This document shows, in pieces, positions 3,181 to 58,474 of a stretch of 58,915 bases of DNA. The translations under genes and the position numbers were made by a program. Source of the DNA: Bacteroidales bacterium. GTDB taxonomy: Bacteria > Bacteroidota > Bacteroidia > Bacteroidales > P3. The notes under the pieces are model-generated. The model had not been told where the DNA came from. It worked only from the letters and a program-made list of their open reading frames with translations, and did not search any database. Numbering within the stretch: the stretch's first letter is position 1; each line of letters begins with the position of its first letter. The DNA lies in NCBI GenBank assembly GCA_017509045.1, contig JAFWQP010000127.1, forward strand, positions 1 through 58,915, written 5' to 3'.

Positions 3181-3365
3181 TGCAATGAACAGTGAACAGT
3201 GAACACTGCAAGAGGGTGGGGTGAAAGTCACAAGTCACATGCGTATGCTTTTGGCTATGGGTAGAGTTATATTATATAATAATATATTGATTAATAATTA
3301 ATTATATTATAATAGACTAAATAACATAAAAAAACACATTGCATGTGACATGTGACTTTTGTGAC
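3176..3365. repeat. Hairpin element with GTGACAT heptamer arms (copy 1)
   Basis: The left arm at about 3224-3242 contains GTCACAAGTCACATGC; the right arm at 3341-3359 contains GCATGTGACATGTGAC. They pair over 19 bases with one mismatch, and the right arm holds further GTGAC units up to 3365. The left flank (CACTATGCAAT, then GAACAGTGAACAGTGAACACTGC) and the loop start (GTATGCTTTTGG) are shared with the copy at 4.1 kb. The arm units themselves are different in that copy. Confidence 0.8.
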
Positions 3366-3506
3366 ATCTCTGCAATATGTTTGTTATTAATTGATTATGT
3401 TGTTTCGGTTGTAAAATGTACCGTGTGACTTCTTTCACATTTCTGTAGGGGAAAGATGCGTTATGATTTGATATAGACTGACTTGTGTGTGTCAATCCCA
3501 ATATAT

Positions 3507-3673
3507 GCTACAGCGCTACAGTGCTACGGTTCGTTTTATACCCTTATCAAGACCTAGAATGATAATTAATAGGGTTTTTGTTTGTCAAGAATTTGAGAAT
3601 TAGTGATTTTGTTGATTGCACATTGAGAGTGGACACCTCAAATACGAACTGTAGCACTGTAGCACTGTAGCGC
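3507..3673. repeat. Hairpin with GCTACAGT octamer arms (copy 1)
   Basis: The left arm (3507-3533) is made of about three GCTACAGT-like units ending in GTTCG. The right arm (3645-3673) begins CGAACTGTAGCACTGTAGC and matches the reverse complement of the left arm at about 25 of 27 positions. The loop is about 110 bases and AT-rich. A second copy with the same arms but a much more structured interior lies at 50.7-51.1 kb. Confidence 0.8.
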
Positions 3674-3855
3674 ATCAAGCACTCCATACGGGCTTTGGTA
3701 TATGATATTCAATAATATAAATAATAGTTCTGCTCAAAAACCAAAAATCATTGCATTTCACAGTTCATAGTTAAACCCAAATCGGTTATTAAGCCGACTT
3801 TTCTTTAGTTTGGACAACTAATAATTATGGCTCTAATTTAATTTAAAACTGTTTT

Positions 3856-4060
3856 TACAGCCTTGAGAGGCAAGTTCTCAAAAGGGGTTGTATATTACCC
3901 GCTTCGCGAAATCTGGCAATCCTAGAGAAATCTATTTTCTCCAAGATTTCTGGATTTCCGCTGCAGGCGGGGAGATACTTACAGTCTCGAGGCAAGCTCT
4001 CAATAGGGGATGTATATCGCCCGCTTCGCGAAATCTGGAAATCCTAGAGAAATCTATTAG
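3856..4060. repeat. 125-base imperfect tandem duplication
   Basis: Sequence at 3884-3934 recurs at 4008-4058 with few changes; both contain CCCGCTTCGCGAAATCTGG and CCTAGAGAAATCTATT. The preceding GAGGCAAG(T/C)TCTCAA also recurs at the same distance. Small palindromes (CGCTTCGCG, AGAAATCT against AGATTTCT) sit inside the unit. The open frame that spans it (3888-4097) is a by-product of the repeat and is not a supported gene. Confidence 0.7.
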
Positions 4061-4114
4061 TGGGATTCGTGTTCAAAATAGAACCCGAATAAAGTAGTAT
4101 TGCCTCCATATCGC

Positions 4115-4350
4115 TGAAAGAAAAACACTATGCAATGTACAGTGAACAGTGAACACTGCTGTGCTTTCATGAGGGAGGGGTGAGGGTAACAAAGATTTTA
4201 CATTTTACATTTTACATGCGTATGCTTTTGGTTATTGGGAGAGTTATATAACATATAATATAATGAATAATAATATATTATAATAATATTTACCTTGTTG
4301 CATCAAAAAAACACATTGCATGTAAAATGTAAAATGTAAAATCTTTGCAA
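4115..4350. repeat. Hairpin element with GTAAAAT heptamer arms (copy 2)
   Basis: The left arm (4190-4219) and right arm (4318-4347) are perfect reverse complements over 30 bases. Each contains three ATTTTAC/GTAAAAT units followed by the ATGC or GCAT junction. The outer flank and loop start match the element at 3.2 kb, which uses GTGACAT units instead. The right arm alone recurs at 35754-35779. Confidence 0.9.
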
Positions 4351-4560
4351 TGGTGTGTATATCATTGTTTTGTGTTCAAATTGGCATAATTAGATTTTAC
4401 ATGCGATGTAAAATCTTTGAATTGATAATGACGGTATTATTCTGATATAAAGCGGTTTGCATGATAAATGGTGGATTGCTTTAGGAGAGGGGGTATAATT
4501 ACATTTTTTGCATCTATTTGTTGCCCCAATTAAGCGGTTTGTGCCTAACATCTTTTTGAT

Positions 4561-4820
4561 GAAAGAGAGCCTCTTTTTTACAAAAGAGGGGAAAATGTGA
4601 CTTTTTTGTGCAAAAAAGTTTGTTATGTCGTTATTTCGCGCTATCTTTGCATTCAGAAACGGACGAGAGGTCGCGACTTTTGGGTTTGTATCCTCGGTGT
4701 GGGTTCGCTCTGCCTTCGCTCTGGGTTCGCTCTGGCTCCACTCCTAATAGCGAAGGCAAAGTGGATTCAAAATGGGATGAGGATGCCCTCGATATTACCT
4801 ATCTGTTTGTCGGATGAACC
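4561..4820 (+). repeat. Dispersed promoter-bearing noncoding element, copy 1
   Basis: It starts with a CCTCTTTT/AAAAGAGG hairpin and an ACTTTTTTG/CAAAAAAGT hairpin. A consensus promoter follows (TTTG 4619-4622, 19 bases, TATCTTTG 4642-4649). Next comes a variable body with repeated TTCGCTCTG units, and a conserved tail (GATTCAAAATGGGATGA, then CTCGATATTACCTATCTGTT, then GATGAACC). Related copies are at 17155-17543 and 35862-36199. Transcription from the promoter would start near 4655 and give an RNA of about 165 bases if it ends with the tail. The frame at 4597-4848 is not a credible protein. Confidence 0.65.
4619..4649 (+). promoter_or_regulatory. Consensus Bacteroidetes promoter inside dispersed element
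   Basis: TTTG at 4619-4622 and TATCTTTG at 4642-4649 are separated by 19 bases. No gene lies downstream within 400 bases, so the likely product is a noncoding RNA or a relic transcript. The same promoter, almost base for base, is found at 35922-35952. Confidence 0.65.
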
Positions 4821-56809: not shown

Positions 56810-56923
56810 GAAGTAAGAACTATGAACTAAGAAATTGGGGCGGCAGCCAATCTTTGAAGTAAGAAGTAAGAACTATGAACTAAGAAGGTTGGCGGAGCCC
56901 TTTTCCAATTTTCAACTCTCAAC
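56810..56923. repeat. AAGAACTA hairpin (second copy) and TTTTCAACTC units
   Basis: AAGTAAGAACTATGAACTAA (56811-56830), centre TTGGGGCGGCAGCCAA, then AAGTAAGAAGTAAGAACTAT in the same direction, and GTTGGCGGAGCC. The centre matches that at 44385-44402. Here the second arm is direct rather than inverted, so this copy looks rearranged. Confidence 0.65.
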
Positions 56924-57244
56924 TCAACGAACGGTGACGGCAGTGCCGGAGGCGGTGACCATGAGCATACCATTGTTAGTGCCGAGGACTTCGTAGTCGA
57001 TGTCCACGCCTACGACGGCATTGGCACCGAGGCGTTGAGCGCGATTTTCCAACTCACGCATGGCGTTGGTACGGGCATTGTTGAGTTCTTCCTCATAGGA
57101 GTTGGAACGACCGCCAACGATGTTGCGGATGCCTGCAAAGAAATCCTTTACAAAATTGATACCGGTGATAACTTCTCCGAATACGACACCGTGGTATTCA
57201 ACAATCTGGTGTCCTTCGATGGTGGGGGTGGTGGTGATAATCAT
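56924..57244 (-). CDS. YbjQ family (UPF0145) protein
   Basis: A 106-residue protein of the YbjQ/DUF74 family: [40 protein letters not shown], and [24 protein letters not shown] sequence (here [20 protein letters not shown]). Pentameric small proteins of unknown function, sometimes called heavy-metal-binding without proof. Full length, start clear. Confidence 0.92.
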
Positions 57245-57289
57245 GATTTGAATGTGTTAAAATATTGAAGTAAAAGGTAAAAACTAAAA

Positions 57290-57478
57290 AGTTATTTTAA
57301 TTCGTTAATTTGTGAATGTGTTAATTCGTAAATCTTGAATTCGTTACTTCGTGACGTTGTTTGGCTCGGCATAGCGAGCAAGCTCTCTCTGCTCTCACCT
57401 TGTACAACGTTAATTCGTTAATTTGTAAATTCGTAAATCAAAGATTCACACATTAACACATTCACGCATTAACGTATT
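57290..57478. repeat. Two octamer hairpins around an inverted CCGAGCC module
   Basis: TTCGTTAA/AATGTGTT units at 57297-57345 and ATTCGTTA...CACATTAACACATTCACGCA at 57408-57478 (centre AATCAAAGATT) enclose, in reverse orientation, a CCGAGCC module (57346-57412: GTTACTTCGTGAC, then GGCTCGGCATAGCGAGCAAG). Two repeat families are nested at one site. Confidence 0.75.
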
Positions 57479-57498
57479 CTTTTAGTTTTTACTGTTCT

Positions 57499-58308
57499 CT
57501 ATCGATAGCTGATGTTGAATGTTTGGGGGCTGTTGTTGTTCAACCCGACGGACTTATATATCACTTGCGGCCAGGTGTTATAGAGTTCGTAGCCGTAGTG
57601 GCAATAGTAGTTGATGCTGCCGTCAGGGTTGTACCCTATGACATCCGTAATGTTGTTGAGGCTGAAGAAGGATGGGTGCTGAAGGAGGTCTTCTTGTTCC
57701 AAGACAGGACTCCATGCCAGCCCGCAAAAGGGGTTGTGATTGTCGTCGTAAAGGTATTCGTACCGCACCATTTCGGGATTGGTTGGAGTGGCCTTAATGA
57801 GGTTTCCCTTGTCCCATTCTAGGTTGTAGGCGGTGCTGTTGCTGTACCATTCTGCCGGGTTGGTTGATTCGTGGTAGAAGCTGCTATCAATCACCTTATA
57901 AGGTTGCACCTGCCCATTGTAGCGGAACATCAACGTGCGCGTCCTGCCATTTCGGATAATCTTAATTGAGGTAAGGAGTTTGTCAGCGTCATAGGTGTAT
58001 ATTATGTTGCTGTCGACACTCGATAAGCGGTTGTGGCTGTCGTAGTTGTATTGGCTTATAATCATGTCGGACTCGTTCGATGGATTGGCATATTCTATGG
58101 CAATCAGCCGCCTCCCAATCCATTGCGTGGCAAGGAGTGTCTTGTTTTCGCCAGAAATGTTGGTGGACACCTCTTTGATCTGACCGGAAGGACTGTAGAT
58201 GCCATAAAACAGGTTAGAACAGTCGGGGATGATGCGGTCTTCTTTTTGGCATCCTGTCATCAGCAAAAGAGTGGCAGACAGGGCAAGGAACAGTGAGCGA
58301 GTATTCAT
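57499..58308 (-). CDS. Lipoprotein with YD/DUF4595-like repeats
   Basis: A 269-residue lipoprotein: lipobox LLLMTGCQKE. The mature part has repeated beta-strand units ending in Y-x-Y-D patterns (MIISQYNYDSHNRLSSVD, IYTYDADKLLTSIK, VRYEYLYDDNHNPF, VIGYNPDGSINYY), similar to DUF4595 and to the secreted protein at 5.1 kb. Such proteins are common, unassigned Bacteroidales outer-membrane lipoproteins. Confidence 0.75.
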   Translation of the reverse strand: MNTRSLFLALSATLLLMTGCQKEDRIIPDCSNLFYGIYSPSGQIKEVSTNISGENKTLLATQWIGRRLIAIEYANPSNESDMIISQYNYDSHNRLSSVDSNIIYTYDADKLLTSIKIIRNGRTRTLMFRYNGQVQPYKVIDSSFYHESTNPAEWYSNSTAYNLEWDKGNLIKATPTNPEMVRYEYLYDDNHNPFCGLAWSPVLEQEDLLQHPSFFSLNNITDVIGYNPDGSINYYCHYGYELYNTWPQVIYKSVGLNNNSPQTFNISYR

Positions 58309-58393
58309 ACTATTACATTTTTTATATTAACGTTATTGGCGCAGAAATATTGTACTCGACAACAATAATTATACGAAAATGACGTTTAAAGAA

Positions 58394-58474
58394 AAGTAAA
58401 AACTATAAAAAAGTAAAAACTATAAGGTGCGACAACCTACTTTTTAGTTTTTAGTTTTTACCTTTTACTTTAAT
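58394..58474. repeat. AGTAAAAACTATAAA / TTTTTAGTTTTTA hairpin before the TPR gene
   Basis: AAGTAAAAACTATAAAAAAG and a second unit (58394-58427) face CCTACTTTTTAGTTTTTAGT and more (58435-58472); the loop is TGCGACAA. It ends a few bases before the next start codon. Confidence 0.8.

Follow-up and report, generated by a model that had tools for sequence, protein, structure and literature searches.

Short dispersed hairpin elements with arms of tandem units that change in step in a Bacteroidales genome

How do the two arms of a hairpin, each built from a short tandem unit, stay matched to one another when the unit itself differs from one hairpin to the next? This question is raised by a contig of 58,915 nucleotides from a Bacteroidales bacterium (JAFWQP010000127.1 of assembly GCA_017509045.1; hereafter the window), in whose gaps a first-pass annotation had noticed at least a dozen such inverted repeats with units of 7-12 bases. 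The window is contig C132 of a genome, G000, of 2.71 Mb in 154 contigs (94% complete), and the closest named relatives of this genome are Bacteroidales metagenome-assembled genomes (MAGs), many of them titled with ruminant hosts. In this report, we show that the hairpins form families of short dispersed elements of the miniature inverted-repeat transposable element (MITE) or foldback type, one family having target site duplications (TSDs), and that within families the two arms change in step. Arm-to-arm copying by template switching, together with slippage, is the best-supported cause of the matched tandem arms; no such event was observed.

Repeat-unit hairpins exist at the sites named by the annotation, as confirmed by Tandem Repeats Finder and an inverted-repeat search, after which the gaps were inspected by eye. 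A census of arrays of 7-12-base units and of hairpins (arm score of at least 18, loop of at most 60) in the window and 20 sampled contigs, 301,453 bases of G000 in all, gave 142 arrays and 20 hairpins, nine of the latter with periodic arms. Five dinucleotide shuffles in 300-bp blocks gave 0-1 arrays each, with neither hairpins nor periodic-arm hairpins. The hairpins are genuine and far more numerous than chance would give; chance is excluded. Hairpins of like kind are present in several other MAGs. Bacteroidales relatives (69 loci, 1.34 Mb) yielded 225 arrays and 51 hairpins, and seven loci of Clostridia-type records and one archaeon yielded 2 arrays and 3 hairpins in 130 kb. Seven bases was the commonest or joint commonest unit length in window, sample and relatives alike. 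When units were shuffled among arrays, inverted partners were in significant excess across 80 loci of relatives (35 against a mean of 5.5, maximum 16). The excess was not significant in the window (4 against a mean of 3.25) or the G000 sample (18 against 12.6, maximum 23), since one and the same unit turns up at several loci of a family. A scan of the window against Rfam at gathering score returned no match, and a tRNA search of the window found none.

The annotation had held that arms match within a locus while the unit differs between loci. This stands for 8 of the 16 window loci (3.2, 3.5, 4.2, 40.6, 44.4, 50.6, 50.7 and 58.4 kb), where the best match of an arm is the second arm of the same locus. 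It fails for five AATGTGTT/TTAACGAA loci (23.4, 45.9, 52.2, 53.4 and 57.3 kb), which have units in common and find better matches at other loci than within themselves, and for three more (25.4, 25.97 and 56.8 kb) whose two sides do not match each other. For the most part, the loci are not separate inventions of a unit; units differ mostly through membership in separate dispersed families, a kind of explanation that the annotation had set aside, and true switching is found inside one of them, family B.

Mirrored change is best documented in the 11-mer families. Family A, whose window copy (50586..50690) is a palindrome of the 11-mer GTTATACCTTA with outer arms that no longer pair, occupies at least 40 places in G000 (80 strand-wise matches; the best 40 of 51 candidates were scored). 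It is a palindrome of ~112 bp with three mirrored 11-mers, and in most copies a variant middle unit is mirrored as well; the 30 copies read are 92-100% identical over ~90-105 of 105 bases. Matches occur in 9 of 119 genomes of the genus and are numerous only in G000, G037, G102 and G125. Mirrored derived states number 21 in family A of G000, against a permuted mean of 9.1 (maximum 22, p = 4e-4), in the 26 of 30 copies left when L111, L116, L120 and L131 had been dropped for register. A second family, A', was met at locus L051 of the relative G136 as an 11-mer hairpin with a different unit, and it is dispersed there with at least 80 strand-wise matches (best 40 of 72 candidates scored). Among 22 of its copies (copy L292 left out), 13 derived states are mirrored, compared with a mean of 6.7 and at most 12 under permutation. 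At two arm sites all four haplotypes are present, with left equal to right in 18 copies (8, 5, 3 and 2) and four copies discordant. These mirrored sites are C/G and T/A transversions and therefore did not pass through a G-U wobble intermediate.

The arms also mirror whole units and, in places, flanking sequence. Most family A copies read in G037 carry TTTATACCTTA in place of GTTATACCTTA, and in copy L380 the mirror takes in three different 11-mer units, in order; copy L377 has four units in one arm and three in the other, as expected of plain slippage. L373 repeats on its left, in mirror image, the right-flank sequence common to other copies; L378, judged by eye, shows the reverse case, with the left flank mirrored onto the right. 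Extension of the mirror into the flank is a prediction of template switching at a hairpin. It spans 10-13 nt in 3 of the 18 G000 copies with a symmetric boundary, compared with 2 of 306 swapped left-right pairs at 8 or more (maximum 9); in G037 it occurs in one of six copies (L373), whereas none of 30 swapped pairs reaches 6. An inversion of the loop relative to the flank looked possible in a few family A' copies, too sparse for counting.

Family B, with 54 strand-wise matches in G000, some of them solo arms, is a composite element in which heptamer arms bounded by CATTGCA/TGCAATG surround an AT-rich palindromic core of 100-112 bp. Both window copies lie on the plus strand: the copy at 3170..3376 has AAGTCAC/GTGACAT arms (3224-3242 and 3341-3359) with the AT-rich core between them, and that at 4120..4420 has ATTTTAC/GTAAAAT arms (4190-4219 and 4318-4347; 30 nt, 100% complementary). 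Solo arm cassettes are found elsewhere in G000; one on the plus strand at 35750..35786, CATTGCATG(TAAAATG)2TAAAATCTTTGCAA, is identical to an arm of the 4.2-kb element. In all 21 copies compared, the two arms share their majority heptamer word (seven words; shuffle mean 3.5, maximum 12), with single deviating units in L138, L139 and L142. The cores of L138 and L153 are only 4.5% apart and all six of their arm units differ. Mapped onto the best core tree, the words require nine changes, the minimum being six, and given the well-supported branches TTTTAC, GTTAC and GTCCA must each account for two. Units have truly switched inside this one family, as its copies at 3.2 and 4.2 kb exemplify. A degenerate cassette pattern matched 57 of 59 genomes of the genus, mostly in unrelated sequence; among the matches listed, heptamer cassettes occurred in G000 only.

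Family H has 46 strand-wise matches in G000. Its window copy (40599..40776, plus strand, 178 bp) has 12-mer arms of AGTTAAATAGGA, ends GAGGACTTCTATAAATT and GATGGGTTCTATTAATT and a flanking ATAA duplication, and is absent from the orthologous gap of G037. A sister element of 190 bp without arrays (21063..21252, plus strand) has ends of the same kind (GGTGGGTTCTATAAATT) and a GTAA target duplication. The family, with ends of the form GGTGGGTTCTAT, has GAGGACTTCTATAAATT at one side and an end of the GGTGGGTTCTATTAATT type at the other. Exact 4-bp AT-rich TSDs flank six of seven end pairs (ATAA, TAAA, TTAA, TTAA, TTTA and, at the 21,063 element, GTAA); the seventh, L276, has none. Its terminal repeats and exact 4-bp TSDs make family H a MITE, strictly defined. 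This combination was found in family H and the 21.06-kb element only, and no TSD was established for families A, B, C or D; a multitude of dispersed copies is common to A, B and H. Arms could be compared at 6 of 18 family H loci, the core pattern not being found in the rest: in copy L261 both arms contain a different module, of ~29 nt, and L266 has this module twice in one arm. Two wide-spaced family H end pairs were examined as autonomous elements and rejected, as they enclose ordinary genes and no transposase.

The annotation had named the same units by simple descent in orthologous gaps as evidence against its proposal. G037, mostly ~75-90% identical to G000 at the nucleotide level in our sample, allowed a comparison of 18 collinear gaps chosen by hand, of which 15 were scored. 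Arrays occur in ten of these in G000 and in five in G037, and the two gaps with arrays in both species have different units, a result that mostly favours the proposal; the clearest gap, L095:6530, holds an AATTGAA heptamer hairpin in G000 and a TGATTGTC-type hairpin in G037. Descent did appear, by eye, in two gaps (L097, and L095 at 10.4 kb) where both species have the same heptamer type below threshold. The 44.3-kb gap, interrupted by ~3 kb in G037, is weak evidence. Three gaps of L090 (at 6574, 9889 and 14823) were unscored; the first and third have arrays in G000, with none seen in G037. The FeoB orthologues offered few usable gaps, and a search for relatives with a secreted protein as query gave no match.

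Our data suggest a model, which we hold to be reasonably probable, whereby MITE- or foldback-type families are dispersed, slippage multiplies their units and template switching homogenises their arms. Elements with inverted arms of tandem short units around a conserved core would be spread by putative trans-acting transposases, and units would multiply and homogenise within a copy by replication slippage. Template switching at the hairpin, in which the nascent strand folds back or moves to the sister strand, may then use one arm to rewrite the other, and this would keep the arms in step and sometimes extend the mirror into the flank. Template switching can both create and correct hairpin arms, according to the portion of the source consulted (PMC8794818). 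Words would be species-specific because the expansion and death of families outpace the divergence of genes. Independent slippage, which the annotation had considered insufficient, does not account for mirrored variants, mirrored units and the extended mirror; fold-back or template-switch copying, which it had offered as a possible process, fits variants, units and flank.

Several observations weigh against this model. No transposase was found for any family in a search limited to Y1, RVT_1 and the two wide end pairs. Single-arm differences exceed mirrored ones, mostly at the outer arm ends (81 against 21 in family A and 43 against 13 in A'), and 17 of 41 copies (12 of 30 in G000 and 5 of 11 in G037, L378 included) lack a symmetric boundary and were left out of the flank test. 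The five window loci of family D have arms of two different unit types. In family B, part of the agreement in 21 of 21 copies is descent, and the switches are the independent events; only 3 of 18 inner branches of the core tree are well supported. TTTTAC and GTTAC each stand on two distant core lineages, so template switching alone needs the same word to have arisen twice or to have been imported. Finally, the comparisons run between copies and between species, and no switch was seen happening.

The recurrence of words is the starting point of a different explanation, in which the heptamer is the binding word of a trans-acting protein (a transposase or replication initiator) that mobilises only elements ending in the same word at both sides; arms would then match by selection on mobility, and words would be swapped as sets. 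Virus-specific iterons are an analogue of such word-specific binding. Words do recur as complete sets on distant core lineages, solo single-arm cassettes have identical ends, and outside the hairpin a third copy of the word agrees with the arms in, for example, L134, L135, L137 and L146; yet this third copy departs from the arm word in L138, L140, L144, L145, L154 and L157, no such protein was found among the two kinds searched (Y1 and RVT_1), and the mirrored variants of 11-mer arms and the mirrored flanks are left unexplained. We regard this explanation as rather unlikely, and it stays alive because template switching does not explain the same word on different cores. A bolder form, to which we assign a slightly lower probability, would make the arm heptamer an exchangeable recognition word for a cognate trans-acting factor, with whole word sets (both arms and sometimes a third hairpin) copied between cores; if this is true, one core family runs under seven words in one genome.

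Selection for an RNA or DNA stem, acting as terminator, mRNA stabiliser or protein-binding hairpin through base-by-base compensatory change, would also keep arms paired, and a GC-rich loop core of the GGCTGCC type with variable arms does recur, by eye, in heptamer loci of G000 and relatives. The mirrored changes are, however, multi-base and include transversions and the ~29-nt module, the window has no Rfam match, and the tandem nature of the arms remains unexplained. Placement bears on the same point: the 30 family A copies (L103-L132) lie in 16 divergent, 3 convergent and 8 co-directional gaps, with 3 at contig ends, and divergent open reading frames (ORFs) flank 16 of the 27 placed copies compared with 12 of the 64 background gaps that measure 150 bp or more (Fisher p = 3e-4). 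Such placement argues against a terminator role for family A, and neither A nor A' shows the placement of intrinsic terminators at 3' ends or between convergent genes. The divergent placement hints at a promoter or insulator role, although not for A' in G136, which lacks such a bias (4 divergent, 5 convergent and 13 co-directional among 22 copies); as the ORF calls are mechanical, it is a lead. Overall, stem selection appears improbable. Assembly graphs might instead have merged one arm with the reverse complement of the other, given that the closely compared genomes are MAGs, probably short-read, and that some copies (L155, L157 and L158) lie near contig ends. This we judge very improbable: the same assemblies keep unmatched arms (4 of 22 haplotypes, the odd unit of L138, four against three units in L377), such hairpins occur in several other MAGs, and family H has TSDs. 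Scarcely more than negligible is the probability of a dedicated enzyme, a telomerase-like reverse transcriptase or REP-associated tyrosine transposase (RAYT; REP, repetitive extragenic palindrome) that writes short units and folds them back. Units are uniform within a copy, and G000 has two Y1 (IS200-like) transposase genes (L001:1396-1896 on G000:C78 and L002:1190-1645 on G000:C6), but both genes sit immediately amid GC-rich REP-like palindromes (ACCCCTACGGGGTAATGATGG; CCCTTTCAGGGC and ACCCCGAAGGGGT). A single family A copy and a single GCTACAGT copy are found ~0.5-1.3 kb away from the L001 gene on one side, with none on the other side read; the repeats that immediately flank the two Y1 genes (L001, L002) are not the hairpin palindromes. 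Y1 is moreover widespread (31 of 41 genomes searched, G000 included). The reverse transcriptase model RVT_1 (PF00078), the only such model used, had no match in the 94%-complete G000 and matched in 10 of 31 genomes in a search that included it; arms that mirror unit-specific variants are also not expected of independent writing. The dedicated writer that the annotation had entertained is not supported. Separately, a Y1 gene amid GC-rich REP-like palindromes is a RAYT-like arrangement in Bacteroidales.

The remaining window loci are varied in structure. A GCTACAGT element at 3507..3671 ends in inverted 8-mer arrays, its arms being 103 nt apart; the same element recurs at 50728..51074, and its units recur as pairs beside L001 and in sample contigs L092 and L093. 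Nested in the second copy, at 50827-51031, is another inverted-repeat element, AACCCAAAACGGTCATTAGG...CCTAATGACCGATTTGGGTT, with ends of the AACCCAAATCGGTCATTAGG type, and an element with such ends also lies inside a heptamer locus (L097, ~3120-3290). The heptamer hairpin at 44351..44434 has CTAAGAA then GTAAGAA units in mirrored order around the core GTTGGGGGCGGCTGCCAA, and a hairpin of AGTAAAAACTA-type units lies at 58392..58471. The 8-mer family D comprises loci at 23397..23536 (AATGTGTT on the left, ATTAACGA type on the right), 45938..46079 (in the opposite orientation, with sub-threshold heptamers instead in the orthologous G037 gap), 52235..52329, 53411..53498 (a hairpin with a core of about TCCTTGGCGCACCAAAG and arms 81% complementary) and 57277..57492. 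The interior of the last resembles a 67-bp unit that stands twice at 17306-17445 and returns at ~57345-57415, reverse-complemented and slightly diverged. Heptamer arrays without matching sides occupy 25397..25483 (AAATTGA and TAAACTT, to the two sides of TTGGCTGCTGC) and 25950..26040 (AAATTGA and TTAAACT types, to the two sides of TTGGTTGACGCG), and two direct GAACTAA/GAAGTAA arrays at 56808..56888 form no hairpin. Other repeats were observed beside these: 10-mer TTACCGCATT arrays adjoin promoter-like GTGCAAAAGTAC sequence at 28157-28213 and 33068-33102, similar 10-mers fill a G037 gap (L385), and a GC-rich unit of 46 bp is perfectly duplicated in tandem at 35966-36056, the corresponding G037 gap being only 169 bp. 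The long ORF at 53691-56096 has 78-bp repeats that encode BspA-like leucine-rich units. Downstream of the FeoB gene, L225 of G006 has a dense GTGACCT/GTGACCA run with repeated GATACGAGCGC cores, and G000 has TAAGAAC heptamers.

When the arms of an inverted repeat evolve together, the usual interpretation is compensatory selection. Here a single genome holds dozens of copies of the same element, which provide replicated footprints of arm-to-arm copying at sites without evident gene function, and template switching at palindromes would become measurable in bacteria from genomes alone. The findings also suggest how heptamer repeats of the cyanobacterial or Xanthomonas type might arise and stay paired, and they place a foldback-like MITE architecture in Bacteroidales at ~100-450 bp.

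Among the titles and abstract openings searched, most subscription papers being outside the scope, we found no account of Bacteroidales elements with mirrored short-unit arms whose units change as sets. Of the known systems, REP and REPIN sequences with RAYT Y1 transposases are dispersed intergenic palindromes, as here. REPs are, however, single short palindromes of 20-40 bp, and the Y1 genes here adjoin GC-rich REP-like repeats and not the hairpin elements. The short tandemly repeated repetitive (STRR) sequences of cyanobacteria and the heptanucleotide stem of the trnL intron are comparable heptamer repeats; the elements here share with STRR sequences intergenic tandem heptamers, a resemblance only and not homology. 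The heptamer repeats of Xanthomonas and Nostoc are likewise mostly intergenic and often form two convergent arrays (70 in X. campestris pv. campestris, 75 in X. axonopodis pv. citri), and the long arrays are not at the same genes in sister species, as here; they differ in having one G-rich unit type and, in the section of the paper covered, neither a conserved core nor terminal repeats nor switching of units as a set (PMC4692102). TAACTGA repeats of Beggiatoaceae, cyanobacteria and five Bacteroidetes are also mostly intergenic heptamers, and some orthologous gaps of relatives lack obvious repeats; unlike the present elements, they are, in the part of the report consulted, direct arrays of one word, which in the main genome lie mostly just upstream of start codons (PMC4679880). 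Template-switch mutation at hairpins and quasi-palindromes, as described in the portion consulted, can make both arms identical in one event, as proposed here, but it is a mutational mechanism and not an element family, and was inferred there in RNA genes (PMC8794818). Foldback transposons such as Tetris of Drosophila virilis have inverted arms with internal tandem repeats and are dispersed and apparently non-autonomous; according to the passages available they are eukaryotic, with arms of several hundred bp to ~1-2 kb and, in Tetris, units of ~220 bp (PMC4079207, PMC1952172). Inverted arms built of tandem subrepeats are found here too, but in bacterial elements ~100-450 bp long with units of 7-12 bases. 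Within the same order, Bacteroidales, stands Porphyromonas gingivalis. Its BrickBuilt element is also an intergenic MITE with a tandem array and several copies per genome, but, as far as the consulted part of its description goes, it has one 23-nt unit in a single direct array between small inverted ends rather than two mirrored arrays (PMC4596501).

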